Of a DNA stretch of 35,167 nt, positions 74 to 16,795 are shown piece by piece (positions within the stretch are counted from its first letter, which is position 1; each line of letters begins with the position of its first letter). The translations under genes were made by a program, and so were the position numbers. The notes under the pieces are model-generated. The model saw nothing but the letters and a program-made list of their open reading frames with translations, did not search any database and was not told where the DNA came from. Source of the DNA: SAR86 cluster bacterium (GTDB lineage Bacteria > Pseudomonadota > Gammaproteobacteria > Pseudomonadales > Pseudohongiellaceae); contig NVWI01000008.1 in the NCBI GenBank assembly GCA_002746215.1, positions 104,859 through 140,025 of the forward strand, written 5' to 3'.

Positions 74-1813
74 TTAAGTGATTCGATTAGCTTCAGCAAG
101 ACTGGTCAAACCTTTAGCGACTTTAATCAATGCTGAATTTCTAAGGTCATTGAAGCCTTGCTGTCTGGCCATATCGGCTATTTGAATAGTATTTCCATTA
201 TCCATAATAATACGTGAAATACTATCGGTGATAGGAACTACTTCATAAATCCCGACTCTGCCTTTATAGCCTTCGTTACACTTATCACAGCCCATTGCGC
301 CATATAGTTCTATATTTTCTAATTGTTCTTCAGTAAAACCTTCTTGTAACAAGATTTTCGGTGGTAATTTAATTGGTTTTTTGCAGTTATTGCAAAGCCT
401 TCTGGCTAATCTTTGAGCGATAATCAGTGTCACAGAGGTTGCCAGATTATAGGACGCAATACCCATATTCATCATGCGGCTCAACGTTTCTGAAGCGCTG
501 TTGGTGTGTAGGGTCGACAGTACCATATGGCCAGTTTGTGAGGCTTTTATCGCGATTTCTGCAGTTTCCAGGTCACGTATTTCGCCGACCATCACGACAT
601 CTGGATCTTGCCGTAAAAAGGCTCGTAGCGCAGAGGCGAAGTCGAGGCCGACTCGTGCGTTTATGGCAACCTGGTTGATGCCTTCCAAATTGATTTCAAC
701 GGGATCTTCTGCAGTAGAGATATTTCTTTCATTGGTATTGAGAATATTCAAGCCAGTGTAAAGAGAAACAGTTTTACCACTGCCGGTAGGGCCCGTGACA
801 AGAATCAAGCCTTGATGTTGGTGCAAGGCCTTGAGAAATAATTGTTTCTGGTCATCTTCATAACCCAGGGCATCAATACCCAGCATGACGCTACTGGAGT
901 CAAGAATTCGCATGACAATTTTCTCGCCCCATAAAGTAGGCAGGGTATTAACCCTGAAATCAATGGACTTGTTACGAGATAGTTTCATCTTTATGCGGCC
1001 ATCTTGCGGCAGGCGCCGTTCTGAGATATCGAGTTTTGCCATGATCTTAATTCGCGAACAAATACGATTAGCGATATTAATTGGAGGGCGAGCTATTTCT
1101 TTGAGGATGCCATCCAGGCGGTAGCGTACCCGGTAAACTTTTTCGTAAGGTTCAATATGAATATCAGAGACACCCAGTTTTATTGCATCTAACAGGACTT
1201 TATTGACGAACTTGACGATGGGTGTGTCATCAATACCTTCTGCGGGGTCTTCCTCAGCGCTTTCTTCTATTATTTCGATATCTATCTCTTCGAGGTCAAG
1301 GTTATCAAGGCCTTGGTATTCATAGTTACCCTCTTCTACATCTTCACCCTCACCGCCAAGATCTAACAGCTCATTTATCAGGCTTTGTAGCTTGTCATCT
1401 TCAACGATGATCAGGTCTATACTGGCGCCAGTGTTAAATTTTATTTCATTAATAGCATTTTCATCTGAAGGGTCAGATACTGCCAGGCTCACACGGTTAC
1501 CTTTTTTCTGCAGGGGAAGCACATTGTGTTTCTTAATAAGCTTGGCATTTACCAGCTTTACAGGTTCACCAAGAGTGACAGGGTCTAACGCAGCTAAATC
1601 AATTCTAGGTAGCCCGAATTCAATAGAAGCGGTTTCTGCAATTGCCTTACTATCCAGAATGTTATTTTTAACCAGATAGCGGGTTAGAGGAATGTTTTCT
1701 TCGCGGGCTTGACTGTAGGCTCTAAGCATTTCCCCTTGAGCAATTAAATTTATAGCGACCAGTTTTTTAGCTAAACCTTTGATTTCAATTTCACTTTTTA
1801 ATTCAGTGCTCAT
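74..1813 (-). CDS. pilB: Type IV pilus assembly ATPase PilB
   Basis: This is the cytoplasmic hexameric ATPase that powers pilin polymerisation at the inner-membrane platform. The 579-residue product has an N-terminal GspE/MshEN-type domain (about 50-150), an acidic linker (about 155-195) rich in Asp and Glu, and a secretion ATPase core. Visible motifs are Walker A GPTGSGKT (341-348), the Asp-box and Walker B around RQDPDVVMVGEIRD (401-414), the His-box TGHMVLSTLHTN (427-438), and a zinc-binding tetracysteine (C474, C477, C509, C512). Length is normal for PilB, which is usually about 565-580 residues. It starts at an ATG with a poor Shine-Dalgarno sequence and is divergent from pilA, as in Pseudomonas. 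The next gene on this strand, expected to be pilC, would lie before base 74, outside the window. The tetracysteine and the location beside a major pilin argue for PilB over GspE. Confidence 0.96.
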   Translation of the reverse strand: MSTELKSEIEIKGLAKKLVAINLIAQGEMLRAYSQAREENIPLTRYLVKNNILDSKAIAETASIEFGLPRIDLAALDPVTLGEPVKLVNAKLIKKHNVLPLQKKGNRVSLAVSDPSDENAINEIKFNTGASIDLIIVEDDKLQSLINELLDLGGEGEDVEEGNYEYQGLDNLDLEEIDIEIIEESAEEDPAEGIDDTPIVKFVNKVLLDAIKLGVSDIHIEPYEKVYRVRYRLDGILKEIARPPINIANRICSRIKIMAKLDISERRLPQDGRIKMKLSRNKSIDFRVNTLPTLWGEKIVMRILDSSSVMLGIDALGYEDDQKQLFLKALHQHQGLILVTGPTGSGKTVSLYTGLNILNTNERNISTAEDPVEINLEGINQVAINARVGLDFASALRAFLRQDPDVVMVGEIRDLETAEIAIKASQTGHMVLSTLHTNSASETLSRMMNMGIASYNLATSVTLIIAQRLARRLCNNCKKPIKLPPKILLQEGFTEEQLENIELYGAMGCDKCNEGYKGRVGIYEVVPITDSISRIIMDNGNTIQIADMARQQGFNDLRNSALIKVAKGLTSLAEANRIT

Positions 1814-1911
1814 GTTAATAGTTTACTTTAACTTTCTGACTTTTCTATATAAAAATAAAAGATTTTTCATATTAAGTGGGAACTAAAAAATAACCAAAAA
1901 ATGGAATAAAG

Positions 1912-1926
1912 TGACAAATATTGTCA
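1912..1926. promoter_or_regulatory. Palindrome TGACAA-ATA-TTGTCA, possible PilR-type activator site
   Basis: This is a perfect inverted repeat with 6-bp arms and a 3-base centre. It sits about 190 bases upstream of the predicted pilA start of transcription. Pseudomonas PilR recognises short TGTC/GACA-containing boxes upstream of pilA, and both arms contain that core. The assignment to PilR is inference, since the distance is larger than in Pseudomonas. Confidence 0.4.
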
Positions 1927-1987
1927 ATAAATTATAGGGCATTTAGGATAAATGTCATTTTTATTTGTTGAGCCACCTTAAAAAACA

Positions 1988-2003
1988 GGTGATCTATTTC
2001 ACA
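1988..2003. promoter_or_regulatory. CRP/Vfr-like binding site
   Basis: The sequence GGTGA-N6-TCACA matches the CRP consensus TGTGA-N6-TCACA in 9 of 10 conserved positions. The N6 is TCTATT, also close to the E. coli centre, and the site is followed by TTTT. In Pseudomonas the CRP homologue Vfr controls pilus genes. The site is centred about 120 bases upstream of the predicted pilA transcription start and about 180 bases upstream of the pilB start codon, so either gene could be the target. Confidence 0.55.
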
Positions 2004-2036
2004 TTTTAGACTTGAAAAATTAGATTTGAACGATAG

Positions 2037-2064
2037 ATAGCCCTAAATAAGGGGCTATTTTATT
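2037..2064 (+). terminator. Terminator-like hairpin upstream of the pilA promoter
   Basis: A 7-bp stem ATAGCCC/GGGCTAT (2037-2043 with 2052-2058) has an 8-base loop and is followed on the plus strand by TTTTATT. It lies before the sigma-54 promoter and no plus-strand gene precedes it. It may end a short upstream transcript or insulate the promoter. The stem is short and confidence is moderate. Confidence 0.4.
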
Positions 2065-2088
2065 AAATAAACACATTCAGCATAAAAC

Positions 2089-2104
2089 TGGCACAAGCTT
2101 TGCA
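2089..2104 (+). promoter_or_regulatory. Sigma-54 (RpoN) promoter of pilA
   Basis: The sequence TGGCAC-N5-TTGCA matches the -24/-12 consensus closely. GG (2090-2091) and GC (2102-2103) are 12 bases apart as required. Transcription should begin near 2115, giving a leader of about 75 bases. RpoN plus PilR/PilS control of pilA is established in Pseudomonas and related genera. No pilS or pilR gene is in this window. Confidence 0.88.
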
Positions 2105-2189
2105 CGGTTAAATGCAGATATTAGATAATATGCCTTATGCGGTGATCTGATTATCTTGAATAACGTTTTTTTAACTTAGGAGACACAAC

Positions 2190-2615
2190 ATGAAAAACAT
2201 GAAAAAGAAAGTCCAAAAGGGTTTTACCCTGATCGAATTAATGATCGTAATTGCGATTATCGGTATTTTGGCTGCTGTTGCTTTGCCTGCTTATCAGGAT
2301 TACACGATTCGTGCTAAAGCGTCTGAACTGATTCTTGCTGCCAGCACAGCTAAAAACAGCGTTTCTGAGTATGCCATTATTAACGCTACCCTTCCTTCTA
2401 CTACAGGGATTACGATTCAGAATATCACTTCAGGTATGACCAGCTCTGTAACATGGAATGGGACTGCCAACAGAATTCAGGTTGTAGCTGATTCAACGGC
2501 TCTGGGTCAACCCGTTACTATGTATTTAACGGCATCAATTAATGGTTCCGGCGGTGTTAACTGGGTATGTAGTGCAGCTATAGGCACTAATTATCTGCCA
2601 GGTAGCTGTAACTAA
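2190..2615 (+). CDS. pilA: Type IV major pilin PilA
   Basis: This is the structural subunit of the type IVa pilus. The 141-residue prepilin has a basic 11-residue leader ending in Gly, then the class III signal [20 protein letters not shown]. Cleavage by PilD is expected after G11, and F12 would be N-methylated. Mature Glu5 (E16 of the precursor), needed for assembly, is present. Near the C terminus C127 and C140 can form the disulfide-bonded D-region loop, and the protein ends immediately after the second Cys with one Asn. The globular part is rich in Ser and Thr, which are potential O-glycan acceptors. The ATG has an AGGAG Shine-Dalgarno 7 bases upstream. Expression is predicted from the sigma-54 promoter upstream, and a strong terminator follows. 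Confidence 0.96.
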
Positions 2616-2647
2616 AATTTCGAGCTAAGCTTTAGTTTGTTATATAG

Positions 2648-2682
2648 AAGCCAGCCTGCAATAGTAGGCTGGCTTTTTTTTT
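2648..2682 (+). terminator. Rho-independent terminator after pilA
   Basis: A perfect 10-bp stem AAGCCAGCCT/AGGCTGGCTT (2648-2657 with 2666-2675) has an 8-base loop and runs into a T tract up to 2682. It separates pilA from the downstream glycan genes, which must then use read-through or their own promoter. Confidence 0.93.
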
Positions 2683-2715
2683 GAATGACTTACTGAACAT
2701 AAATTAAATTTCTAT

Positions 2716-4608
2716 ATGTTTGAATCTGACAAAAAATTCAATTGGTTTGTGGCGATAGGCATTGTTGCCAGTCTCTTGTTTGTTGCCAGTTTGTACTGGA
2801 GTGGTTTAAATGGGCCGTTCTTATTGGATGATGTGCAGAATATTCAGGCTGATTATGTAGCGGGCTTCAACTGGCCTGAAATTTATTACGCGGTCACTCA
2901 TAATAATAGCGGTATGTTGGGAAGGCCTGTCTCAGTTTTAAGTATTCTCTTTTCGGGTATTTTGCATGGCCCTGATAGCTGGGGATATAAGTATCATAAT
3001 TTACTTATCCATCTTATCAATGGCTTATTAATTTTCTGGATTTTATTAGAAATACTGCCAAGATTAGTCATAAATAAAGATCAGAAAGCCTTATGTATGG
3101 TTGCTGGCTTGAGCGCCTTATTATGGATGCTTCACCCAATCATGGTAAGTACAGTACTTTATGCTGTGCAGAGAATGGCAGAACTCTCGGCTTTGTTTAC
3201 CTTAGTCGCAATCCTTGTCTATATCTTTGCCCGTGAGGCTCTAGAAAAGCAGAACAAAAGTTATTATTTTCTGGCCTATTTAGCCTTTCCTTTAGCATTG
3301 TTGCTTGCCGTTTTTTCCAAGGAAAATGGGGCTCTGGTTCCGTTTTATATTTTTGTAATAGAGCTTGTTGTTTATCGTTTACATTTTTCCAACAAAAATG
3401 TAAGAAATAATCTTATTGTTTTTCATACCTTGTTTGTTTTTATTCCGATCATGTTGGGTTCTATTTATCTGGCGACACATTTTAGTGAACTGGCAAATTT
3501 TGCGCTTAGAGATTACAGCATGATTGAACGACTGATGACTCAGTTACATGTGATGGCTTTTTATCTCAAGTTGATTTTGTTGCCGAACCTTTCAGATATG
3601 TCTCTATTTCATGACGATTATCAGATAACTAGAACCTTTGATATTGGCACAATTCTGTTGTTCCTGTTTTTTTCAGCCTCAGTCTGGTTTGTTTTTTATA
3701 TGAAAAAAAGAGCGCCAGTGATCTCATTTTTTGTGGCCTGGTTTATTGTTTCACATCTTATGGAATCGACTTTTTTGAATCTTGAACTAGTCTTTGAACA
3801 TCGGAATTATCTTGCAGCCTTAGGCCCGATAGTCATACTCATTTACTTTGTATCCATAAGTATGCAACATAAGGGGTTAAGGTATATTCCTGTTTTTTTT
3901 ATAGCGCTAACTTCTTTTATGACTTATGCGAGGGTGGGTGAATGGCAGAGCAAGGATGTGTTTGTCACGATTGCTGTTACTGAGCACCCTGAATCACTTA
4001 GAGCACAAGTTGAATATGCATATCTTCAGTTTGCTTTAGGTAATCGGGATGCCGCTATTGAACACCTTGAAATTGGTCAAAGACTCAACCAAAGAGAATT
4101 TGGTAGTGTCGTAAATAACATTGTCTATCTGTGTGGAACGGACTTTAATTCTGAGGAGTTATTTGTTGAAGCTAAGCTGAGAGCAGCTAACTATCCAGTT
4201 ACACCGTATGCGCTGAATTCAATTGATATCTTATCAAGATTAATAAAAGACAATAATTGTTCTGGGGTGACACTGGATCAACTTTTGGAGCTCGTGCAAG
4301 TTTCAAGTAACCAGACTGATACGCAGAAAATCAAGACTTTATTGGGGTATCTACAGCGACAAGAGGCTCAGATTCGTATCTTCACAGGGGACGTTGACGC
4401 AGGTCTAAGGTATATGATTTCAGCTTATCAAAACTCTGGTGCTACCAGTATTTTAGTCGAAATAACAAATGTGCTATTAAGCGTTAAAGCTTATGAGAAT
4501 GCAGAGGAAATTATAGGTTTACTAGAGGAGCTGGATCAGAATTCTCCTAAGTCTGAGAAATATCAGATCGATATCCTTAAGACTAAACTGGCTGAATTAA
4601 AGCCGTAA
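2716..4608 (+). CDS. Membrane GT-C-like glycosyltransferase with C-terminal TPR-like region
   Basis: This 630-residue polytopic inner-membrane protein resembles the bacterial relatives of TMTC/protein O-mannosyltransferases. After a first membrane helix (about 10-30) there is an acidic pair D38-D39 in the first loop, typical of GT-C catalytic Asp residues. Later come GRPVSVLS, a YHNLLIHLINGLL helix, HPI..V.YAVQRMAE and SKENGALVPF, then VFEHRNYLAALGP, all recurrent in that family. About ten membrane segments run to residue 410. The remaining 220 residues are soluble and helical with degenerate TPR-like repeats. GT-C enzymes use polyprenyl-phosphate sugars, and the next gene could supply one. 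Position immediately after pilA parallels pilin-modifying genes such as tfpO and tfpW, but this protein is not clearly either. The acceptor is unknown and pilin is the leading guess. Confidence 0.65.
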   Translation: MFESDKKFNWFVAIGIVASLLFVASLYWSGLNGPFLLDDVQNIQADYVAGFNWPEIYYAVTHNNSGMLGRPVSVLSILFSGILHGPDSWGYKYHNLLIHLINGLLIFWILLEILPRLVINKDQKALCMVAGLSALLWMLHPIMVSTVLYAVQRMAELSALFTLVAILVYIFAREALEKQNKSYYFLAYLAFPLALLLAVFSKENGALVPFYIFVIELVVYRLHFSNKNVRNNLIVFHTLFVFIPIMLGSIYLATHFSELANFALRDYSMIERLMTQLHVMAFYLKLILLPNLSDMSLFHDDYQITRTFDIGTILLFLFFSASVWFVFYMKKRAPVISFFVAWFIVSHLMESTFLNLELVFEHRNYLAALGPIVILIYFVSISMQHKGLRYIPVFFIALTSFMTYARVGEWQSKDVFVTIAVTEHPESLRAQVEYAYLQFALGNRDAAIEHLEIGQRLNQREFGSVVNNIVYLCGTDFNSEELFVEAKLRAANYPVTPYALNSIDILSRLIKDNNCSGVTLDQLLELVQVSSNQTDTQKIKTLLGYLQRQEAQIRIFTGDVDAGLRYMISAYQNSGATSILVEITNVLLSVKAYENAEEIIGLLEELDQNSPKSEKYQIDILKTKLAELKP

Positions 4609-4655
4609 AGTATTAGTAAGCTATTTCATAATCGTGTACGTGAGGTCGTAAGTTA

Positions 4656-5519
4656 ATGGCTAATTCAGATTTCTCAATAGTGATTCCTGCTAAAAATGAG
4701 GCGCAGAATTTAAAGCTACTGTTGCCAGAGTTAAAGGCTTTATACCCAGAAGCTGAAATTATTGTTGTCAATGATGGCTCGACTGATGATTCAGTATCTG
4801 TTTGTGAAGAAAATGACGTTAATGTATTTACCCATCAGTACAGTAAGGGTAATGGCGCTAGTATAAAAACAGGAGCTAGAGCCGCTTCTCATGACATTAT
4901 TGTTTTTATGGATGGGGATGGGCAGCATCAGCCAAAGGATGTGTCTAGATTGTTAGAACAACTAAATCAGGGCGCTGATATGGTTGTCGGTGCTCGGGGG
5001 AAAAAATCGCAGGCAAGTATTGGGCGTTTACTTGCTAACTCTATTTATAATCGTTTATCTAGCTGGATTGCAGGACAACAAATACAAGATTTAACTTCTG
5101 GTCTTAGGGTCGTTAAAAAAAATAAATTCCTAAAGTTTTTGTATCTATTACCCAATGGATTTTCTTATCCGACGACCTCAACGATGGCTTTCTTTCGCGC
5201 CGGTTATTCAGTCGAGTATATCCCCATAGAAACAAAAGAAAGGCTGGGTAAGAGTCACATTAATCTTTTAAAAGATGGCATTCGCTTTTTTATAATTATT
5301 TTTAAAATCGGCACGCTCTATTCCCCCTTAAAAATATTCCTGCCAATATCTTTTGGTTTTTTCTGTATGGGCTTGGCTTATTATTTGTATACGTTCTTTA
5401 CTTTCCATAGCTTCACAAATATGAGTGCTTTATTATTTATGACTTCTGTATTGGTCTTTTTAATTGGGTTGGTTTCAGAGCAAGTAACAATGCTGATATA
5501 TAAAGACTCTGAAGAGTAA
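4656..5519 (+). CDS. GT2 glycosyltransferase, polyprenyl-phosphate-sugar synthase-like
   Basis: This 287-residue protein has a GT-A domain like dolichyl-phosphate mannose synthase. Visible signatures are FSIVIPAKNEA near the start, VVNDGSTDDS with D40, the metal-binding DGDGQ (D86, D88), and DLTSGLR, followed by two C-terminal membrane helices (about 225-280). Such enzymes transfer a sugar from a nucleotide donor to a polyprenyl phosphate on the cytoplasmic face. GAGG lies about 10 bases before the ATG. It follows the GT-C-like gene by 47 bases in the same direction, so donor production and transfer may be coupled. The sugar cannot be read from sequence. ArnC-type undecaprenyl-phosphate transferases are a related alternative. 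Confidence 0.85.
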   Translation: MANSDFSIVIPAKNEAQNLKLLLPELKALYPEAEIIVVNDGSTDDSVSVCEENDVNVFTHQYSKGNGASIKTGARAASHDIIVFMDGDGQHQPKDVSRLLEQLNQGADMVVGARGKKSQASIGRLLANSIYNRLSSWIAGQQIQDLTSGLRVVKKNKFLKFLYLLPNGFSYPTTSTMAFFRAGYSVEYIPIETKERLGKSHINLLKDGIRFFIIIFKIGTLYSPLKIFLPISFGFFCMGLAYYLYTFFTFHSFTNMSALLFMTSVLVFLIGLVSEQVTMLIYKDSEE

Positions 5520-5600
5520 CTGTTTTTTTGTGGAGCATAAATAATTGAGTTCTCTGCTGAAAATAAATACTAATCTAGTATCTCTGGGTTAATTTTGATC

Positions 5601-6305
5601 ATGCCAAATATTAAGCAAAAAATTAAATCTATTCCGCTTATAGGGTTGCTGGCAAAAGTACTCTATTTTCTCTTGATTGAACCATTTCGAAAATTTTCCG
5701 GATCAGAAGATTACTGGAAGCAACGATATGCTCAAGGAGGTAGCTCAGGTGACGGCTCTTATAAGCTGCTAGCAGACTTCAAGGCCGAAGTATTAAATGC
5801 ATTAGTAGCAAAACATGAAGTAGAGTCAGTGATTGAATTTGGCTGTGGTGATGGTAACCAATTATCTCTTTTAAACTTTTCAGCTTATCAGGGGGTAGAT
5901 GTAAGCCCGCAAGCAATCGCTTTATGCAAAGATCAGTTTTCACAAGATGCTACTAAGGCCTTTTCATTATTAGAGGAGTATCGAGGGCAGCAGAGTGATA
6001 TGAGCATGTCTCTGGACGTGATTTATCATCTTGTAGAAGATGAGGTTTTTGAAAATCACATGAAACTTCTTTTTGAATCGGCTACTGCACTGGTTGTGAT
6101 TTACTCATCTGATACAGCTCAGCAGCAGAAGATTCAGGGCAAGCATATCAGGCACCGAAAATTTACTGATTGGATAGCTAGGCACATCAATAACTGGGAG
6201 CTGGCGCGGCATATTCCAAACAAATATCCCTATAAAGGCGATGATACGTCAGGCTCATTTGCTGATTTTTATATCTACTCCCCACGAAGTCAGAAAAAAG
6301 AGTGA
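5601..6305 (+). CDS. Class I SAM-dependent methyltransferase
   Basis: This 234-residue protein has the SAM-binding motif I IEFGCGDGNQ (E79 to N86) and a downstream acidic residue in GVDVS (D100) that would bind the ribose. A hydrophobic N-terminal segment (about 11-26, IPLIGLLAKVLYFLLI) may tether it to the membrane. The C-terminal part (HRKFTDWI, NNWE, SFADFYIY) does not place it in a characterised family. The ATG at 5601 is preferred; an in-frame TTG at 5595 would add two residues, and neither has a good Shine-Dalgarno. Lying inside a glycosyltransferase cluster, it may methylate a sugar or lipid carrier, which is inference from context. Confidence 0.75.
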   Translation: MPNIKQKIKSIPLIGLLAKVLYFLLIEPFRKFSGSEDYWKQRYAQGGSSGDGSYKLLADFKAEVLNALVAKHEVESVIEFGCGDGNQLSLLNFSAYQGVDVSPQAIALCKDQFSQDATKAFSLLEEYRGQQSDMSMSLDVIYHLVEDEVFENHMKLLFESATALVVIYSSDTAQQQKIQGKHIRHRKFTDWIARHINNWELARHIPNKYPYKGDDTSGSFADFYIYSPRSQKKE

Positions 6306-6311
6306 GTTTGC

Positions 6312-7307
6312 TTGAATCAGGCTGCTCTTGGTTGGTGCTGTTCAATGGTTGAAATTGAAAATAAAAATTTGAAAAAGTCACGGTTTCAAGCCATTATTTG
6401 GCCTGCTTTGTATGCCTTTATATTGCTTTCTGTCATTCTGGCACTGAATTGGTTTTTCTCACTGAAAATTGATTATCAGCTATTTAAAATGCTTTCCTAT
6501 CAGTGGTTAGCAGCAGCTATCCTGATGCAGGGGCTGGTAATAATAGTTTTTATAATGGCTTGGCAATATAACCTGCGCCTGCATGGTCTGTCACAAATCA
6601 GCTTTTTACAATCAAGTCTCATGATAGGCATCAATTCAATTGGCAAGTACACGCCAGGTAAAATTCTCGGTGTTGTTGCCAGAGGTTCTGCCCTTTACAA
6701 AATGGCTGGTGATGGGAGGCTGGTAGTTCAGGCTACGTTGGTGGAGCAACTGGCCCTGGTCCATAGTGGAATTGTGGTTGCCGCGTTGTTCTGGTTAGTT
6801 GACAAAGGCAACATCCTACTGGCTTTACTGGTACTGGGTTTGGCGCTTATTTCAGTTTTTCTGATGGCTCGTTTTGATGAGCTGGTTGTTAATACAACGT
6901 TTAAATTACTCAGAAGAACGCCAGTTGCCCTTATGCATATTGGCTTTAGGAAAAGTTATAAACTGGTCTTTGTGTTAATGGCTCTGATGTGGGTATTGTC
7001 AGCGATGACTTTGTATCTGCTTATGATTGCATTTGGGGTTGTCGGCGGCTGGAGTATTTCTGCATTGATCTGGATAACAGTGATGGCCTATTTAAGCGGA
7101 TTTTTGGCCTTTTTTACGCCAGCAGGCCTCGGTGTGAGAGAAGGGGTCATTGTTGCACTATTGAGCGTGCAGATGGGTGTTGGAGTAGCAGTTTCAATTT
7201 CTATTCTGCATCGCTTAATTACCTTATTGTTTGATTTTTTACTGGGCTGTCTTGCTTTGTTTTTGGGTAAGTCTTATTTAATTGCTCCAATAGATAAAAG
7301 TGATTAA
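6312..7307 (+). CDS. UPF0104/AglD-like integral membrane protein (LPG synthase TM family)
   Basis: This 331-residue protein has about eight predicted membrane helices beginning near residue 27. Two family signatures are clear, GKYTPGKI (111-118) and AGLGVREG (271-278), as in the transmembrane part of MprF and in AglD/UPF0104 proteins. Members near glycosyltransferase genes are often proposed to act in flipping or handling lipid-linked sugars, though most are uncharacterised. The start is uncertain: TTG at 6312 has a GAGTGAG-type Shine-Dalgarno overlapping the stop of the previous gene, whereas the in-frame ATG at 6345 has none. The tight spacing of 6 bases to the methyltransferase indicates co-transcription. 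Confidence 0.82.
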   Translation: MNQAALGWCCSMVEIENKNLKKSRFQAIIWPALYAFILLSVILALNWFFSLKIDYQLFKMLSYQWLAAAILMQGLVIIVFIMAWQYNLRLHGLSQISFLQSSLMIGINSIGKYTPGKILGVVARGSALYKMAGDGRLVVQATLVEQLALVHSGIVVAALFWLVDKGNILLALLVLGLALISVFLMARFDELVVNTTFKLLRRTPVALMHIGFRKSYKLVFVLMALMWVLSAMTLYLLMIAFGVVGGWSISALIWITVMAYLSGFLAFFTPAGLGVREGVIVALLSVQMGVGVAVSISILHRLITLLFDFLLGCLALFLGKSYLIAPIDKSD

Positions 7308-7375
7308 ATCGATGCAACTTAGTTTCAAGTTTCAGTGTTCCTCTAGCAGCAGGGTTTCTCTGAAGCCAGACCGTC

Positions 7376-8560
7376 ATGACTAAAAATAAAATCCTTGTAA
7401 CGGCTTCTACTTTCCCTCGATGGCTTGGTGATACCGATCCTCCGTTTATTTACTATCTGTGTCTAGGTCTCCAAAAATATGAAGTACATATCCTCGCTCC
7501 ACATTGTAAGGGTTGCCCAGAGAAGGAAGTGCTAAAAGGCTTGCATATACACCGTTACCGGTATGCCCCCCAGAGCATGGAAGTTCTCGCGTATGATGGC
7601 GGCTTGCTCAGAAAAATAAAAAGCCGTCCTTTATATGCTTTGCTGTTGCCATTTTTTATTGGCGGCCAATGGCTGGCAATAAGACGCTTACAGAATAAGC
7701 ATAAGTTTGCGCTTATTCATGCTCACTGGATCATTCCGCAGGGGCTGGTTGCAGCCTTAAGCCCTTGTAAATACCTGCTAACTTCTCATGGCGGTGACCT
7801 CTATGCCTTAAAGGGTAAATTTCTTACTTCAATAAAAAAATGGATATTAAAGAAAGCCGCTAGAGTGACGGTGGTGAGTCATGCAATGGTTAGTGAGTGC
7901 GTTAAATTGGGTCTCAGAGAAAGCGATGTAACTGTACAGCCGATGGGGGTGGATACCACCGATTTGTTTGTTGCCCCAGAAAATCACGATAGTGCTGCTA
8001 GAAATGGAATTTTATGTGTAGGCCGGTTGGTCGAAAAAAAGGGAATCTCTGTCCTGATCGAAGCGTTGGCAGTACTCAGAGCAATTGAGATAAAGCCTAA
8101 GCTAACAATTATTGGAGATGGCCCTGAAGCCGAGAATCTTAAAAGGCTGGTTTCTGAAAAGAAGCTGGGTGCACAGGTCATATTTTTAGGCGCTATCAGG
8201 AATACAGATTTGCCGGCTTATTATCAGCAAGCGAGTATCTTTGTTTTACCTTCAATCATTTCCAAAGATGGGGACCAGGAAGGTTTGGGTCTAGTCAGCG
8301 TAGAAGCGATGGCCTGTGGTTGTCCTGTGATTGCCTCTGCTCTGCCGGCAGTGAAAGATGTTGTTAGTCATGAGAAAGATGGGCTACTGGTTGAGCCAGG
8401 CTCTGCATCGGCGTTTGCCAAAGCCATTCATCGATTACTTGAAGATAAAAATTTGAGAAATCTGCTGGCTGAAGCAGGCCTACAACGGGCGAGTTATTTT
8501 GATTGGAAAAAAGTCTCAGCCCGATATCAGGACATCATTGAGCAGTTGATCAGCAAATAA
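7376..8560 (+). CDS. GT4-family glycosyltransferase
   Basis: This 394-residue protein has two Rossmann domains of the GT-B fold. The N-terminal half includes HAHWIIPQG and LTSHGGDLYALKGKF, typical of GT4 enzymes that act in polysaccharide or glycolipid synthesis. The C-terminal half holds GRLVEKKGISVLIEAL and the nucleotide-sugar E-x7-E motif (E302, E310, in EGLGLVSVEA). It lacks membrane helices and should act on the cytoplasmic face. It is the last plus-strand gene of the cluster, 68 bases after the UPF0104-like gene, and converges with the acyltransferase on the other strand. Donor and acceptor cannot be deduced. Confidence 0.9.
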   Translation: MTKNKILVTASTFPRWLGDTDPPFIYYLCLGLQKYEVHILAPHCKGCPEKEVLKGLHIHRYRYAPQSMEVLAYDGGLLRKIKSRPLYALLLPFFIGGQWLAIRRLQNKHKFALIHAHWIIPQGLVAALSPCKYLLTSHGGDLYALKGKFLTSIKKWILKKAARVTVVSHAMVSECVKLGLRESDVTVQPMGVDTTDLFVAPENHDSAARNGILCVGRLVEKKGISVLIEALAVLRAIEIKPKLTIIGDGPEAENLKRLVSEKKLGAQVIFLGAIRNTDLPAYYQQASIFVLPSIISKDGDQEGLGLVSVEAMACGCPVIASALPAVKDVVSHEKDGLLVEPGSASAFAKAIHRLLEDKNLRNLLAEAGLQRASYFDWKKVSARYQDIIEQLISK

Positions 8561-8594
8561 AGCTAAGACATTGCCAGAAGGTTTTGATCCTGTT

Positions 8595-10622
8595 TTAAAA
8601 TGGGTGAACGGCCTGAATCATCGCCGCTATTTCGTTTCTGTGGCTGGACACAAATTGATCCGTCAAATGCTGATTATCGCGATAAACAATTTCATTGTTT
8701 GCCTCTGCTTTACAGATTCCATTTGGGCAGACTATTGCGTTTAAGTCCAGCAAACTAACATTTGAAAAAGACGCTGCTGCCAATGAGATACCTGCCATCA
8801 TGTCTGAAGCAGAATTAATTTCTGGTTGGTAAGTACAACTTGTAATCTTCGCGAGAAAATCAGGTTGCCAGGATTTTCGTGCTAGGCAGCCGGGGCCATC
8901 AAAAGGCAGATTATGGGTGCCGGGTATAATAAAGAGGTGTTTCAGCGCGGGTGTTAACTTGGTAAGCACTCGTTGTGTGCCTTCGTTCCATTGTTGTGTC
9001 GTGTAATCATATTCGGCTGAGTTACCGATAAATATTAGATCTGGGCTGAATTGATTTACATTAGAAAGGACATTATCACGCCACTCTTGACAGACTTCAT
9101 AGATCATCCCTATACGATCATAGTAAATGGATTCATCAACAATGGGGCAGGATGATTTGGTGTAAACAATAAAGCGCCAGCCAGCATTAATTAGAGGAGT
9201 GGCCAGGCCACTAAACCACTGTGCACCAACACTGTCACCAATCAGTACGGCAGTATGCTCCGCATTCTGATCCCCAAAAACACAGGCGAGAACTCTGGCG
9301 TTTTGGTACCAGTCATCACAACCAGATTGGTAAATCATAGGAAGATTACTTCTTACTTCTAGAAAAGTAATTTGCTGGGGGTTCTGAGCCTCAGAAAAAA
9401 CTTTAGTTTCCCATGTTTTCACAATAAAGAGAGCGGACAGCATAAGAACAAATGATGCGCATACTGTAAGGGCCGGCTTGATACTAAATAATCTCAAGTG
9501 TCGCAGTGGCGACTCTATTAAGGTGTAGGTTATTTGAGCGAGTAGCAATGAAATTATAATAAGAGATAAGTTTAGACCCATAGCTGGAGATGGAAAGATA
9601 ACGCCTCCCAAAACAAGAATCGGCCAATGCCATAAATACCAGGAATATGAAAGGTCACCAATTTTTTGCATCCATTTTCTAGAAAGTGTTCGGGTGATTA
9701 TCTGTGATGCGTTAGACGCCCCGGCTAATAAGATTAAGCCTGTTCCTAAAGATGGCAGCAGGGCATGGAATCCGGGATACACAACTTTTTCATCAAGATA
9801 AAGCAATGCCAGGAGGATGCAGGCAAGCCCTAAAGGCCCCGCTAATTTAAATATTTGGTCATAATTTTTATTATGGAAGCAGGAAGTCTTTGTGTGTATT
9901 AGAAGAAAAATGATGCCACCGAGGGCAAATTGCCAGCCCCGTCCAGGCATTAGATAAAAGGCTAGGGTCGGCGCTGCATAAGACCAATAAATTCCTAAAA
10001 TAAAACTGAAGAGGAAAATGCAAATTAATCCTATACGTAAATTATGAGTACTGTACTGCGCATGCTTGGGCTTGGTATCGCCGTGGGTTTTAAATAGCAG
10101 GAGAAATAAGAGCAAAGGCCATACTAGATAAAACTGCTCTTCAACGGCTAGAGACCAGGTATGCAGGAAAAGGCTGTTATCGGCTTCAGGCGCAAAATAA
10201 TTAAAGTCGGCAAAACTGAAATAGAAATTACTCAACCATAAGGGGACAGAATAAGCCGCCTTTGCCTGGTTGAGCTGCTCAAATGGTGCCAGGATAAAAT
10301 AAGCTAATAGTAAAGTGGCTATTACGACGGTTATCAGGGCTGGAAGAAGTCGTTTGAAGCGGCGCGAATAAAATTGTAGAAAGTTTATTTTATTGCTTGT
10401 CTGTACTTCTTTGATCAATAAACCAGTGATTAAATAACCGGATAAAACAAAGAAAATATCAACGCCAATGAAGCCGCCCAAAAAGCCTGGGATGCTGGCA
10501 TGAGAAAAAACAACTAATAAGATAGCTAATGCTCTCAATCCCTGAATGTCAGGTCTGAATCCTAGATGAATGATCTTGTCAAAATCATTTCTAGTGACAG
10601 ATGATGGCTTCAGTTCTTCCAT
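8595..10622 (-). CDS. OafA-type acyltransferase with C-terminal SGNH domain
   Basis: This 675-residue protein joins an acyltransferase-3 membrane domain (about 20-390) to a periplasmic SGNH hydrolase-like domain. The first part starts with FRPDIQGLRALAILLVVFSH, carrying the conserved Arg and H41, then FFVLSGYLITG. The second part has GDSVGAQ near 461 (nucleophile block) and DNQHLT near 650 (Asp-His pair). Two-domain proteins of this architecture O-acetylate lipopolysaccharide O-antigens, peptidoglycan or exopolysaccharide. Its convergence with the glycosyltransferase cluster suggests it decorates the same glycan. The 34-base gap between the two stops shows no clear terminator. Confidence 0.92.
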   Translation of the reverse strand: MEELKPSSVTRNDFDKIIHLGFRPDIQGLRALAILLVVFSHASIPGFLGGFIGVDIFFVLSGYLITGLLIKEVQTSNKINFLQFYSRRFKRLLPALITVVIATLLLAYFILAPFEQLNQAKAAYSVPLWLSNFYFSFADFNYFAPEADNSLFLHTWSLAVEEQFYLVWPLLLFLLLFKTHGDTKPKHAQYSTHNLRIGLICIFLFSFILGIYWSYAAPTLAFYLMPGRGWQFALGGIIFLLIHTKTSCFHNKNYDQIFKLAGPLGLACILLALLYLDEKVVYPGFHALLPSLGTGLILLAGASNASQIITRTLSRKWMQKIGDLSYSWYLWHWPILVLGGVIFPSPAMGLNLSLIIISLLLAQITYTLIESPLRHLRLFSIKPALTVCASFVLMLSALFIVKTWETKVFSEAQNPQQITFLEVRSNLPMIYQSGCDDWYQNARVLACVFGDQNAEHTAVLIGDSVGAQWFSGLATPLINAGWRFIVYTKSSCPIVDESIYYDRIGMIYEVCQEWRDNVLSNVNQFSPDLIFIGNSAEYDYTTQQWNEGTQRVLTKLTPALKHLFIIPGTHNLPFDGPGCLARKSWQPDFLAKITSCTYQPEINSASDMMAGISLAAASFSNVSLLDLNAIVCPNGICKAEANNEIVYRDNQHLTDQFVSSHRNEIAAMIQAVHPF

Positions 10623-10757
10623 TATTTATTGACTATTTAAATGCTTGAAATTCAGCATGGCATAGCTATTTTACAGGCACAAGCTGGCTTCATAAAAATG
10701 TGATTTGGGTAGGAAAATAAGAGAAAAATAAAAAATTCGATGCTTATAGTAATTAAA

Positions 10758-11594
10758 TCAAACAAAACGCATAGAAAAATCGATTGCCCGACAATGCTTC
10801 GTAAGAGCACCTATTGAAATATAATCAACACCAGTTTCCGCAACGGCGACAATACTTACATTATCATAGCCACCGGATGCTTCCAGTAAGGCTCTGCCTT
10901 TATTTATAACAACAGCCTGGCGTAAAGTCTCCAAAGAAAAATTATCCAACATCACCGTGTCAGCCTTGGCTTTCAGCGCAATTTCAAGCTGTTCCAGTGT
11001 TTCCACCTCTACTTCAACGGGTTTTTCAGGGGCAAAGCGACGTGCATAGGCTATGGCCTCAGCTATCCCTCCGCAGGCGCTGATGTGATTCTCCTTGAGC
11101 AGGAAAGCATCATATAGTCCTAAGCGATGGTTATAGCAGCCGCCCTGAGTAACTGCGTATTTTTGTGCGAGTCGTAAGCCAGGAATGGTTTTTCGTGTAT
11201 CTAAAATTTTTACCGCTGTATGTTGCACGAGTTCAGCATAGTGCCTGGCTATAGTCGCAGTGCCAGATAATATTTGTAGAAAATTTAAAGCCGTGCGTTC
11301 TGCACTAAGAATGTTTTTTGCAGAGCCATAGGCCTTAAAAATGACATCATCGATTTGGCATTGGCTACCTTCGATCACATCCCAGTCAATTTTTATAGAG
11401 GGATCGATTTGATTAAATACTTCATTGACCCAGGGCTGGCCGCAAATTACAGCTGTCTCTCTACATATCACTTGTGCCACTGCTCTTTCTTCAGTAGGGA
11501 TAAGAGAGGCGCTTATATCGCCGCTGCCAATATCTTCTTGCAGGGCACTACGAACATTAATTTCAAGGTCTTTAAGAAAAAGGCTATTGGTCAT
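10758..11594 (-). CDS. nadC: Nicotinate-nucleotide pyrophosphorylase (quinolinate phosphoribosyltransferase)
   Basis: NadC converts quinolinate and PRPP to nicotinate mononucleotide, CO2 and pyrophosphate in de novo NAD synthesis. The 278-residue product is of normal length. Active-site elements are visible: LDTRKTIPGLR (R134, K135, R141), GGCYNHR (H156, R157), LLKENH (K167), VEVETLEQ (E197), LDNFS (D217) and the phosphate-binding LEASGGY and SIGALT segments. It is divergent from ampD, with 64 bases between start codons. The nadC-ampD pairing and the nearby pil genes match the E. coli order ppdD-nadC-ampD. Confidence 0.97.
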   Translation of the reverse strand: MTNSLFLKDLEINVRSALQEDIGSGDISASLIPTEERAVAQVICRETAVICGQPWVNEVFNQIDPSIKIDWDVIEGSQCQIDDVIFKAYGSAKNILSAERTALNFLQILSGTATIARHYAELVQHTAVKILDTRKTIPGLRLAQKYAVTQGGCYNHRLGLYDAFLLKENHISACGGIAEAIAYARRFAPEKPVEVEVETLEQLEIALKAKADTVMLDNFSLETLRQAVVINKGRALLEASGGYDNVSIVAVAETGVDYISIGALTKHCRAIDFSMRFV

Positions 11595-11658
11595 GTTGGT
11601 CTCTTTTCAATAGTAGCCGCTTCATTATAGCGTAGGCCTTTTGTGGTATAACAGAACT

Positions 11659-12201
11659 ATGAAAATTATTGATCATTGTTTGGATATTGCTCGCCAACAA
11701 CACTCTCCAAACTGTAGCGACAGGCAAGACAATGAAATCAGCCTTTTGGTGATTCATAATATTAGCCTTCCGCCGGGTCAGTTCGGTGGCCCATATATTG
11801 ATGCGCTTTTTTGCAATGAGCTGGATTGTAGTCAGCATAATTTTTTTTCGGAATTAAAAGACTTAAAAGTCTCATCACATCTGTTAATTCGAAGAGATGG
11901 TGAAATTGTTCAATATGTGCCATTCAATAAACAAGCTTGGCATGCTGGTATTTCTAACTATGAAGGCCGCGATCAATGCAATAAGTTCTCTATCGGAATC
12001 GAACTGGAAGGAACTGATCATGATGAATTTACAGCGCTTCAATATCAGGCATTAAGCACCATCACTCGTGTTTTATTGCAAACATATCCGACGCTGAGTG
12101 AAGAGAGAATAGTAGGGCATTCAGAGATAGCGCCAGAAAGGAAAACTGACCCGGGCCCTAGCTTCAATTGGCATCTCTACCGAGATGGAATAATAGTTTA
12201 A
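11659..12201 (+). CDS. ampD: 1,6-anhydro-N-acetylmuramyl-L-alanine amidase AmpD
   Basis: AmpD is a cytoplasmic zinc amidase that removes the stem peptide from anhydromuropeptides during cell-wall recycling, and so controls AmpR-type signalling. The 180-residue product has the zinc ligands H33, H154 and D164, with E115 in the IGIELEG motif and K162 matching catalytic residues of the E. coli enzyme at almost identical numbering. The ATG at 11659 is chosen over an in-frame TTG at 11641 because it gives the family's usual N terminus and length. A TATAAC at 11646-11651 lies just before the ATG. The usual partner ampE does not follow. Confidence 0.95.
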   Translation: MKIIDHCLDIARQQHSPNCSDRQDNEISLLVIHNISLPPGQFGGPYIDALFCNELDCSQHNFFSELKDLKVSSHLLIRRDGEIVQYVPFNKQAWHAGISNYEGRDQCNKFSIGIELEGTDHDEFTALQYQALSTITRVLLQTYPTLSEERIVGHSEIAPERKTDPGPSFNWHLYRDGIIV

Positions 12202-12202
12202 T

Positions 12203-12213
12203 TGGTTTTACTA
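12203..12213. promoter_or_regulatory. GntR/PdhR-type operator, site 1
   Basis: TGGTTTTACTA fits the FadR-subfamily signature TNGTNNNACNA. The left half ATTGGT (12201-12206) equals the E. coli PdhR half-site, while the right half is diverged. It begins just after the ampD stop codon, far upstream of aceE. Confidence 0.45.
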
Positions 12214-12282
12214 CAAATCTACCTGCTTGATAACTATAGTAATTAAACAAAAATATTAGGCGAATAGTGTTTAAATAGTGCA

Positions 12283-12305
12283 TTTATGTAGTAAAACTAC
12301 ATAAA
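12283..12305. promoter_or_regulatory. GntR/PdhR-type operator, site 2 (perfect palindrome)
   Basis: Two perfect 10-bp arms, TTTATGTAGT and ACTACATAAA, flank a 3-base AAA centre. The core TAGTAAAACTA fits TNGTNNNACNA of FadR-subfamily GntR regulators, the group that includes PdhR and LldR. It is the strongest of the sites upstream of aceE and is 114 bases before the start codon. Confidence 0.7.
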
Positions 12306-12344
12306 CAAAGAGCTTTACTGGAAATTCAGCATAATTTTAAGTAG

Positions 12345-12358
12345 AATTGCGCGCAATT
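12345..12358. promoter_or_regulatory. 14-bp palindrome AATTGCGCGCAATT
   Basis: This is a perfect inverted repeat between operator sites 2 and 3, touching the first base of site 3. It is the only GC-rich core in an AT-rich leader. It may be a second regulator's site, but no regulator can be named. Confidence 0.4.
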
Positions 12359-12372
12359 GTAGCTTTACTACA
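12358..12372. promoter_or_regulatory. GntR/PdhR-type operator, site 3 (degenerate)
   Basis: TGTAG and CTACA arms flank a 5-base centre. The sequence equals site 2 except for one base in the left half and the base composition of the centre. It is about 50 bases before the aceE start, a position suited to blocking transcription. Confidence 0.5.
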
Positions 12373-12418
12373 GATTTTTTTCCTAAATTGTATCCCAAGA
12401 ATTCAAGAGATCTAACCT

Positions 12419-15100: not shown

Positions 15101-15115
15101 AAGTAGGAGAAAATT

Positions 15116-16795
15116 GTGTCCCTGGAAAAAATAACAATTCCTGATTTGGGTGATTCGGCAGATGTCGAAGTCATTGAGGTTTTAGTTTCACCAGGTGATG
15201 AGATTCAGGAAAATGATTCTCTGTTAGTTTTGGAAACTGATAAAGCGGCCATGGAAATTCCAGCTGCTAGCGCCGGGGTTATAAAAGAAGTATTAGTGAA
15301 AGTCGGTGATACAGTTAGCCAGGGACATGAAATTATTGTCTTGGAAAGCATTTCTGCTGGTAGTGATTCTGACGATACTTCTAAAGAAAGCGTAAACACA
15401 GAAACAAACGTTGAAGCCGAATCTTCTAGCAAAAAAGTTGAAGAAGTTGAGCCGCCTGTTGAAGAGCAGAAAAACCAGAGTGTAGACAGTACAGAAACAT
15501 CAGTTGTCGATATTGTTATACCTGATCTAGGCGCTGATGATGCGGTTGAAGTCATTGATGTGCTTGTGTCAATTGGTGATGAAGTTAATGTCGATGATGG
15601 CTTGCTTACTCTGGAAACTGACAAAGCTGCAATGGATGTGCCCGCACCTTTTAGCGGTAAGATTACTGATATAAAAGTTAAAGTTGGTGATAAGGTGATA
15701 ACTGGCGCTGTTATTATGCTTGCAGAAACTTCTGCTGACGTAAGTGCTGAATCGAAACAAGAAGCAAAACCTAAACAAGCAAGCGCTGATGTTGCTGCTT
15801 CAAGCTCTCCAGTCATTCAAGCTGTTTCGCCCCCCCAACAAGCCTCTCAACAAACCTCCCAACAGGCAATTGGGCCAAAAGACAATTCTGAAGTTTATGC
15901 TGGCCCGGCAGTTAGAAAATTTGCTCGTGAACTAGGCGTTGACCTGACACAAGTTGCGGGTACAGGAACAAAAAGTCGCATCCTTAAAGAAGATGTGCAG
16001 GCCTTTGTAAAAACGACTATCCAGGGAGGAGGGGCTTCGTCATCAAGTGGTGCAGCTTTTGCTTTGCCTCAGATTAAGGATATTGATTTCAGTCAGTTTG
16101 GAGAAATTGAAGAAATTGAGATGAGTAAATTACATCAGCTGACTTCTCGGAATATGTCTCAAAACTGGCTAACCGTTCCACATGTCACTCAATTTGAAGA
16201 AGCTGATGTGACAGATTTAGAAGATTTTAGAGCGGCACAGAAAGCTCTTGCTGAGAAAAAAGGCCTCAAACTTTCGCCATTACCATTTATCGTTAAAGCC
16301 TGTGCTCAGGCCTTGACTGAATTTCCACAATTTAATGTGTCTATACATTCGTCTGGCAGTAAATTAATCCAGAAAAAATATGTGAATATTGGCGTTGCAG
16401 TAGCAACACCCGCAGGCTTGATGGTACCAGTGGTGAAGGATGCTGATCAGAAGTCAGTGTGGGATATTACAGCAGAAATAACCGAACTTAGTCAGAAGGC
16501 TAAAGACCGTAAACTCACTAAAGAGGACATGGCAGGCGGTTGTTTTACTGTTTCAAGTCTTGGCAATATTGGTGGCGCAGGCTTTACACCAATTGTTAAT
16601 GCCCCTGAAGTTGCCATTCTGGGTGTTTCTAAAACAACAGTAAAACCCGTTTGGATGAATAATGAGTTTGTGCCACGTAAGATGCTGCCGTTTTCCTTGT
16701 CTTACGACCATCGTGCCGTGAATGGTGTAGATGGTGGACTATTTTGTCAGTATCTCAATCAATTACTGAGTGATATCCGCTTAATGGTACTGTAG
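15116..16795 (+). CDS. aceF: Pyruvate dehydrogenase E2, dihydrolipoamide acetyltransferase
   Basis: AceF is the core of the pyruvate dehydrogenase complex and transfers acetyl groups from lipoyl-lysine to CoA. The 559-residue protein has two lipoyl domains with lipoylated K43 and K170 (both in LETDKAAM), linkers rich in Ser, Gln and Ala, a peripheral subunit-binding domain (about 261-297) and a catalytic domain. The catalytic motif reads SYDHRAVNG, with H532 and an Asn (N536) where E. coli has Asp; Asn here also occurs in pseudomonad-type E2p. E. coli AceF has three lipoyl domains, so this is the two-domain form. It starts at GTG, supported by AGGAG at 15105-15109. No lpd gene follows. Confidence 0.97.
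   Translation: MSLEKITIPDLGDSADVEVIEVLVSPGDEIQENDSLLVLETDKAAMEIPAASAGVIKEVLVKVGDTVSQGHEIIVLESISAGSDSDDTSKESVNTETNVEAESSSKKVEEVEPPVEEQKNQSVDSTETSVVDIVIPDLGADDAVEVIDVLVSIGDEVNVDDGLLTLETDKAAMDVPAPFSGKITDIKVKVGDKVITGAVIMLAETSADVSAESKQEAKPKQASADVAASSSPVIQAVSPPQQASQQTSQQAIGPKDNSEVYAGPAVRKFARELGVDLTQVAGTGTKSRILKEDVQAFVKTTIQGGGASSSSGAAFALPQIKDIDFSQFGEIEEIEMSKLHQLTSRNMSQNWLTVPHVTQFEEADVTDLEDFRAAQKALAEKKGLKLSPLPFIVKACAQALTEFPQFNVSIHSSGSKLIQKKYVNIGVAVATPAGLMVPVVKDADQKSVWDITAEITELSQKAKDRKLTKEDMAGGCFTVSSLGNIGGAGFTPIVNAPEVAILGVSKTTVKPVWMNNEFVPRKMLPFSLSYDHRAVNGVDGGLFCQYLNQLLSDIRLMVL

Follow-up and report, generated by a model that had tools for sequence, protein, structure and literature searches.

A candidate pilin O-glycosylation gene cluster beside pilA in a SAR86 cluster bacterium

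The pilin glycosyltransferases described in the cited reports are either WaaL-like, namely TfpO, TfpM, PglS, and PglL (PMC12645811), or of the glycosyltransferase C (GT-C) type, represented by TfpW (PMC11841053, PMC12369383). Here, we analyze a 35,167-nucleotide stretch of DNA from a SAR86 cluster bacterium of the Pseudohongiellaceae (GCA_002746215.1, NVWI01000008.1:104,859-140,025, forward strand; G000:C13:104859-140025), hereafter the window, in which six glycan genes lie between the type IV pilin gene pilA and nadC. The first of these encodes a protein that joins a GT-C membrane domain to C-terminal tetratricopeptide repeats (TPRs), and we found no description of a pilin enzyme of this kind in the open-licence literature. 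We consider it probable that the cluster is a three-component system dedicated to O-glycosylation of the pilin, and that its tailoring genes are exchangeable.

The six genes and their families had been named in an earlier model-made reading of the bare sequence (the original prediction). The open reading frames (ORFs) lie where it placed them, and Pfam and NCBIfam matches agree with the families that it gave for the glycosyltransferase 2 (GT2), methyltransferase, UPF0104-like, GT4, OafA-type acyltransferase, and pilin genes. Its membrane GT-C-like transferase is borne out by a structure model.

A GT-C domain joined to tetratricopeptide repeats

In Pfam, the 630-residue transferase has no more than a weak, below-cut-off TPR match (1.0e-3), and in NCBIfam it has none. 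Its AlphaFold2 (AF2) model, computed from an 83-sequence alignment, has a mean predicted local distance difference test score (pLDDT) of 95.3 and a predicted template modeling score (pTM) of 0.94. Residues ~3-426 of this model align best with the oligosaccharyltransferases (OSTs) of yeast and archaea (AglB) (VIA Z 18.9, rmsd 4.6, 313-334 residues aligned), followed by Pmt4 (Z 18.3), Pmt1-Pmt2 (18.1), and ArnT (17.4), whereas residues ~413-630 match TPR proteins at Z scores of 13.4 or less. The GT-C rows thus rank above the TPR rows, as expected of a GT-C superfamily membrane fold, with a TPR fold past residue ~413; the helix list of the model, counted by eye, fits 11 transmembrane (TM) segments. 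The GT-C assignment derives from VIA re-alignment of the structure model rather than from Pfam, NCBIfam, or the Foldseek ranking, which by itself puts TPR proteins at the top. A sequence-profile search of the PDB with the GT-C alignment likewise returned repeat proteins only among the best 60 of 135 rows.

An acidic pair in the first periplasmic loop and an arginine near the last loop, both characteristic of the GT-C superfamily, are present. Seven residues (D38, D39, R70, K202, H362, R363, and Y365) are each found in all 83 aligned members, of which H362, R363, and Y365 sit inside the peptide pattern used for gathering the loci of named genomes. In a pattern-free set of 23 family members, D39 and R363 are invariant, D38 is conserved in at least 90%, and all seven positions are invariant or nearly so. 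Read as motifs, the aspartate pair and the late arginine would correspond to the catalytic and lipid-phosphate positions of TMTC, protein O-mannosyltransferase (PMT), OST, and ArnT enzymes, for all of which a catalytic DD and a lipid-phosphate Arg are described in PMC7801869. Cys473 and Cys515 are invariant in the 23 family members, yet both are present in only 56/83 aligned sequences, and we claim no disulfide. A search for a PMT_2 (PF13231) protein elsewhere in the bacterium's own genome gave 0 matches.

Pairing and co-divergence with the pilin

Across genomes, the enzyme gene is paired with a pilin gene and not with nadC, a pairing that is retained amid different flanks and in further classes of the phylum. 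In a scan of named genomes, we analyzed the best 80 of at least 584 confirmed loci, which are not a random draw and some of which are the same contigs as loci of the window's own family. A pilin gene on the same strand precedes the enzyme gene by at most 1 kb in 52 of these 80 loci, seven others have a pilin elsewhere within 5 kb (59/80), and five are cut at a contig end; the pilin filter misses some pilins, as at L072, which has a pilA match in a separate search. In a second sample of 276 genomes drawn evenly from the window's class, with copies counted at 420 bits or more (the highest 90) and pilins taken as the PF00114 matches listed, 90 strong copies fall in 70 genomes. A listed pilin lies within 1 kb of 41/90 copies, and in all 41 cases it is upstream on the same strand. 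In 43 of the 70 carriers, at least one copy has a pilin no farther than 5 kb away, and reading the flanks of the other 27 adds nine (52/70). Carriers encode a PF00114 protein in 68/70 cases versus 129/206 for non-carriers (odds ratio 20, p 1.3e-9, uncorrected for phylogeny).

Within the window's own family, a homolog is present in 35/137 genomes (E <=0.001). The pilin gene is directly upstream in 11/14 loci fetched from genera g1-g3, and 11/16 loci of genus g8 have one or two oppositely pointing pilin genes on the upstream side and a GT2 downstream. A draw of 120 genomes from the phylum gave matches at 1e-40 in 14, of which nine belong to other classes. Among nine stretches from eight such genomes, a pilin stands beside the match in six (L209, L210, and L212-L215) and in none of L208, L211, and L216; a tenth stretch, from the window's class (L217), likewise has none. 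Neither the enzyme nor a full-length ortholog of pilA is present in G050 and G052, two genomes of the window's genus. Immediately after nadC, G052 has genes read as prepilin peptidase and coaE, and the G050 contig stops ~1.5 kb from nadC. The arrangement in the window is not due to chance, because the six genes stand in unchanged order and orientation in a further genome of the genus, G051 (45-79% identity), and because the enzyme–pilin pairing recurs across many families. The enzyme–pilin core is not specific to this genome, and the wide occurrence away from pilA that the original prediction named as evidence against itself is confined to a minority of loci.

Several relatives show unusual arrangements. 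L070, L071, and L080 each carry three neighboring GT-C copies, interleaved with pilin genes in L070, as if enzyme and pilin duplicate together. The genome of L090, an uncultured Pseudohongiella, has six tandem pilin matches (G136:C1:2644782-2650181). At L156 and L159, GT-C copies stand beside unusual pilin-like ORFs (~160-320 codons from stop to stop), and the same genomes (G353 and G252) also have a pilA-linked copy. In one relative the enzyme gene is decaying, with six in-frame stops in the homolog (L030, G013:C24:19447-21213).

The enzyme as a whole follows the divergence of the pilin, and the GT2 does not. Over 44 loci that have all three of pilin, enzyme, and GT2, pilin distances correlate with TPR-domain distances given the GT2 at 0.33 (Mantel p 0.001) and with membrane-domain distances given the GT2 at 0.27, and with GT2 distances given the TPR domain at 0.03 (p 0.35). 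Kinship was handled in these correlations by thinning only: sets of 36, 29, 21, and 33 loci gave correlations of 0.18-0.22 for the TPR domain (p 0.002-0.022) and of 0.17-0.25 for the membrane domain (p 0.004-0.02). Compared with the genus relatives L003 and L005, the membrane domain of the window's enzyme is 48-52% identical and the TPR domain 33%. Recognition of the pilin by the TPR domain in particular could be proposed as a guess from its position and divergence.

The original prediction had also called the pilin Ser/Thr-rich, which it is to a moderate degree. The 130-residue mature form, with Cys116 and Cys129, contains 26 Ser/Thr among its 102 residues past position 28 (25.5%). Over the same region, Ser/Thr content is 22.2% in linked pilins (n 74) versus 18.8% in control pilins (n 21; p 0.002, a comparison that ignores phylogeny). 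Comparison of the pilins pointed to no conserved Ser/Thr as the acceptor.

The gap from the pilA stop codon to the start of the enzyme gene contains a hairpin with a T-run (z -4.1, with 0/200 shuffles folding as well), and the stem of this hairpin is the longest among the 14 terminator-like sites found (9.3 expected by shuffling). Intrinsic terminators are present in 52/64 pilin–enzyme gaps, compared with 0.2 expected from shuffles that preserve base composition only; one contig is counted twice (L010 and L033), and without the duplicate the figure is 51/63. No known structured RNA matched Rfam at gathering score within 1800-12500. In Pseudomonas, pilin-accessory cassettes have the same layout, and the terminator is proposed in PMC11841053 to attenuate accessory expression. 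By analogy, the terminator here may attenuate expression of the enzyme gene.

Proposed donor supply and exchangeable tailoring genes

The GT2 resembles the polyprenyl-phosphate-sugar synthases of three-component Gtr systems. Its PDB matches include dolichol-monophosphate-mannose synthase (5mlz, 2.1e-11) and sll0501 (5ekp, over residues 3-277), and it matches the phage GtrB-like family phrog_841 over nearly its full length (1.7e-31). The protein contains the motif DGD, and its C terminus forms a hydrophobic tail. It is also the better conserved partner, at 77-78% identity versus 43-45% for the transferase in the genus relatives G049 and G051. A close GT2 (at least 48% identity) lies within 1 kb of the enzyme in 38/80 named loci and within 5 kb in 44/80, and 10 more of the 80 are cut at a contig end. 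The bacterium's own genome has no second close GT2, the next match being at 2.0e-9.

The model of the UPF0104-like protein (pLDDT 76) aligns over 275-283 residues with six MprF entries (VIA Z 20.2-22.0, against 7.2 for the row that follows), and the protein is thus modeled as having the fold of the MprF N-terminal membrane domain. That domain flips aminoacyl-phosphatidylglycerol. Because of this function and the shared fold, we propose the UPF0104-like protein as a lipid-linked-sugar flippase. No GtrA-type flippase was found by Pfam among the six cluster proteins, and the MprF-fold protein is present instead. Other loci have a different PF03706 protein or an ABC exporter; the latter is found close behind the GT2 in Acinetobacter L094 and L098 and in Zhongshania L084. 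At L084 (Zhongshania aquimaris, 12761-15686), the exporter is accompanied by a CDP-glycerol glycerophosphotransferase-like protein (PF04464) behind the pilin, GT-C enzyme, and GT2, and the pilin glycan there might carry glycerol phosphate.

The gene order in the window, from ORF calls and Pfam and NCBIfam matches, is pilB, pilA, the six glycan genes, nadC, ampD, and aceE, the last labeled from ORF reading and the same order in relatives. E. coli has hofC-hofB-ppdD(pilA)-nadC-ampD. The order of the window recurs around the clusters of G049 and G051, where the gene behind pilB is pilC by ORF reading; pilB of G051 is split over three ORFs (L117:11525-12927), reflecting frameshifts or assembly errors. 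Downstream of the enzyme, the methyltransferase, GT4, and acyltransferase are exchangeable between relatives. G049 keeps pilA, the enzyme, and the GT2, followed by its own PF03706 protein, methyltransferase, and GT4. G016 continues with a PF03706 protein, a GT4, an NAD epimerase, two aminotransferases, a Gfo/Idh oxidoreductase, and a hexapeptide acetyltransferase. G017 has the oxidoreductase, an AT3 protein (47% identity), and two further genes that resemble those of G016 and are read as one aminotransferase and the acetyltransferase. More broadly, we scanned 136/153 ORFs in the 5 kb downstream of 28 loci and 119/124 ORFs at 5-10 kb upstream. The 136 downstream ORFs include 31 matches to GT2 (core GT2s included), 17 to GT1/GT4 (PF00534), 12 to methyltransferases, nine to PF03706, and four to NAD epimerase, among the 25 commonest of 79 families. 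The upstream ORFs gave two matches to NAD epimerase, and the 25 commonest of their 163 families include no glycosyltransferase or methyltransferase. Glycan genes thus make up most of the downstream set but not of the upstream one.

The coordinates of these features are given in the table. Alternative ATG starts exist at 5601 for the methyltransferase gene and at 6345 for the UPF0104-like gene. The AT3-SGNH protein matches the O-antigen acetylase family phrog_6705 (4.7e-136) and has the motifs GGFIGVD and GDSV. A phmmer search of the PDB with the UPF0104-like and AT3 proteins gave no matches. Known defense systems were ruled out, PADLOC giving 0 matches among the six cluster proteins.

Table. 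Positions in the window of the pilin-linked cluster and its flanking genes
Feature	Position	Strand	Evidence
pilB, pilus assembly ATPase (context)	74-1813	-	TIGR02538 5.6e-249
pilA, type IV pilin, proposed acceptor	2190-2615	+	PF00114 7.1e-10, PF07963 4.5e-11
Intrinsic terminator or putative attenuator, gap between pilA and the GT-C gene	2646-2685	+	14-bp stem (2646-2677), then T-run
Core transferase, 630 aa, GT-C (~3-426) and TPR (~413-630), proposed pilin O-glycosyltransferase	2716-4608	+	Structure model
GT2, 287 aa, polyprenyl-phosphate-sugar synthase-like (GtrB/DPM type)	4656-5519	+	PF00535 1.2e-28
S-adenosylmethionine-dependent methyltransferase, 236 aa	5595-6305	+	PF08242 2.6e-5, PF08241 1.7e-4; EFGCGDG motif
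LPG_synthase_TM (UPF0104-like), 331 aa, stand-alone, proposed flippase	6312-7307	+	PF03706 1.5e-16
GT4 glycosyltransferase, 394 aa, putatively for a second sugar	7376-8560	+	PF00534 3.9e-46
AT3-SGNH acyltransferase (OafA/OafB type), 675 aa	8595-10622	-	PF01757 3.5e-28, PF19040 4.8e-22
nadC (right flank, context)	10758-11594	-	TIGR00078 3.9e-91
ampD	11641-12201	+	Pfam/NCBIfam family match

Proposed system, alternatives, and known relatives

In the system that we propose, the GT2 would charge undecaprenyl phosphate with a sugar on the cytoplasmic side. The GT4 may extend and the methyltransferase may methylate the lipid-linked sugar, which the MprF-fold protein would turn to the periplasmic face. 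There, the GT-C–TPR enzyme would move the sugar onto Ser or Thr of the adjacent pilin, with the TPR domain perhaps recognizing the pilin, and as the last step in our suggested order of tailoring the AT3-SGNH protein would O-acylate the product. Proteins of the AT3-SGNH family are described in PMC7448272 as acting on surface carbohydrates via a periplasmic SGNH domain. The terminator behind pilA would keep enzyme output far below pilin output.

Several observations weigh against this proposal. The case is built from sequence and predicted structure. No nearby pilin is found in 16/80 named loci, four of which (L050, L057, L064, and L110) adjoin prepilin-peptidase and/or coaE genes by ORF reading, and 18/70 class-sample carriers have none within 5 kb after flank reading (several at contig ends); therefore, some family members have other or distant acceptors. 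Similarly, no close GT2 lies within 5 kb in 26/80 loci for which the downstream sequence extends to 1 kb or more, and hence the donor synthase need not be local. With the harshest thinning (18 loci), neither the TPR domain (0.15, p 0.13) nor the membrane domain (0.19, p 0.08) still correlates significantly with the pilin. Of the four milder thinnings, three leave the membrane domain tracking the pilin as well as, or almost as well as, the TPR domain. The difference in Ser/Thr content between linked and control pilins is small. The terminator may simply end pilA, the gaps scored being pilin–enzyme gaps only. Finally, the AT3 gene is on the opposite strand, and a GT4 is unusual in systems with a lipid-phosphate monosaccharide.

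A variant of the proposed system, conceivable but doubtful, is one in which the glycan would be transferred en bloc: the GT2 would start and the GT4 extend an oligosaccharide on a lipid monophosphate, as in the AglJ pathway of Haloferax, where AglJ charges dolichyl phosphate for later extension, and the GT-C enzyme would serve as an oligosaccharyltransferase to the pilin. AglJ (TIGR04182) is the best NCBIfam match of the GT2, at 122.5 bits and below the cut-off of 325, and the OST/AglB and PMT rows are tied in the structure comparison. The PF00534 matches among the downstream ORFs and the ABC exporters of the two Acinetobacter loci and Zhongshania also fit such a route. However, many loci have no nearby GT4 match, and GT2s of the GtrB/DPM type usually make monosaccharide donors (see also PMC11127046).

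Alternatively, the cluster could modify lipopolysaccharide or another surface polysaccharide in the manner of Gtr systems and lie beside pilA merely because the pilA-nadC gap tolerates insertions. We judge this unlikely. The GT2 and AT3 proteins do match phage O-antigen-conversion families, but the own genome, which is 98% complete, has 0 matches to Wzy_C (PF04932) in a search that was positive in 9/14 control genomes, and this also speaks against membership in O-antigen synthesis, a possibility that the original prediction had raised. An insertion-tolerant gap would account for the differing genes downstream of the core, yet the pairing follows the pilin instead of nadC and holds with differing flanks and in other classes. 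A minority of homologs do lie away from pilins; the closest class-sample pilins, however, all share one orientation relative to the enzyme, most gaps contain a terminator, and enzyme divergence tracks the pilin. The pilin linkage and the lack of Wzy_C support the earlier proposal that these genes may synthesize, transfer, and tailor a lipid-linked sugar for which the pilin is a candidate acceptor. It is highly improbable that the GT-C–TPR protein is a pilin assembly accessory with a TfpY-like role that has lost sugar transfer, since, despite the pilin-adjacent accessory genes without glycosyltransferase function described for Pseudomonas in PMC11841053, its GT-C catalytic positions show little or no variation, and more than half of the named loci have a GT2 resembling lipid-phosphate-sugar synthases within 5 kb.

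A broader reading of the family, which we hold to be about evenly balanced, is that bacteria have a class of pilin O-glycosyltransferases, widespread and so far undescribed, that shares the TMTC architecture (GT-C plus TPR) and is present in about a quarter of the class genomes sampled. In such a class, a fast-evolving TPR domain would read the pilin, the donor would come from a conserved GtrB-like GT2 together with an MprF-flippase-like protein, and downstream tailoring genes would be swapped, giving a varied pilus coat, plausibly directed against pilus-binding phages. If this is true, a common proteobacterial pilin-modifying enzyme has been overlooked because O-glycosyltransferase searches lean on the WaaL/Wzy_C signature. 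It would offer a bacterial model with the domain layout of the TMTC cadherin O-mannosyltransferases and a large set of pilin–enzyme pairs for glycoengineering. It would also be a candidate source of pilus surface variation that could govern phage attachment, as is reported for pilin glycosylation in Pseudomonas (PMC11841053, PMC12369383).

Compared with known systems, the locus shares features with each of four groups. TfpO/PilO, TfpM, PglS, and PglL carry out dedicated or general pilin O-glycosylation and are often gene-linked to the pilin (PMC12645811, PMC3643930). Unlike the window protein, they are WaaL-like (Wzy_C), and a ligase of the WaaL/PglL/TfpO type was rejected, as neither the protein nor its genome has a PF04932 match. 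GtrABC-type systems likewise combine a lipid-phosphate-sugar GT2, a flippase, and a GT-C enzyme (PMC11127046), but the proposed acceptor here is a pilin instead of a polysaccharide, and an MprF-fold protein takes the flippase position.

The eukaryotic cadherin O-mannosyltransferases TMTC1-4 share the GT-C domain with C-terminal TPRs, the DD in the first loop, and, by motif reading, a conserved Lys between TM5 and TM6 and an Arg before TM10 (PMC7801869). In TMTCs, the TPR domain comes after 11 TM segments and faces the extracytoplasmic side. Unlike these enzymes, the window family lacks DUF1736 (PF08409), which in TMTCs lies between TM7 and TM8: it is not among the 25 families listed of 30 matched by the 23 members (E <=1), and it was found in 0/184 genomes, with no match in the control genomes either. 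An invariant QRM of the window family also stands where TMTCs have GRAD. A true TMTC was rejected on the grounds that PF08409 was not found; the protein is TMTC-like in layout and is not filed as a TMTC.

The fourth group is represented by TfpW of Pseudomonas, which acts on group IV pilins. PMC11841053 and PMC12369383 describe TfpW as a pilin-modifying GT-C enzyme whose gene belongs to the pilA cassette, with a terminator behind the pilin gene, and the window has the same layout, the enzyme gene lying directly downstream of pilA with a terminator between. TfpW adds D-arabinofuranose and was compared with the window enzyme by description; it may prove to be a relative of the GT-C–TPR family.

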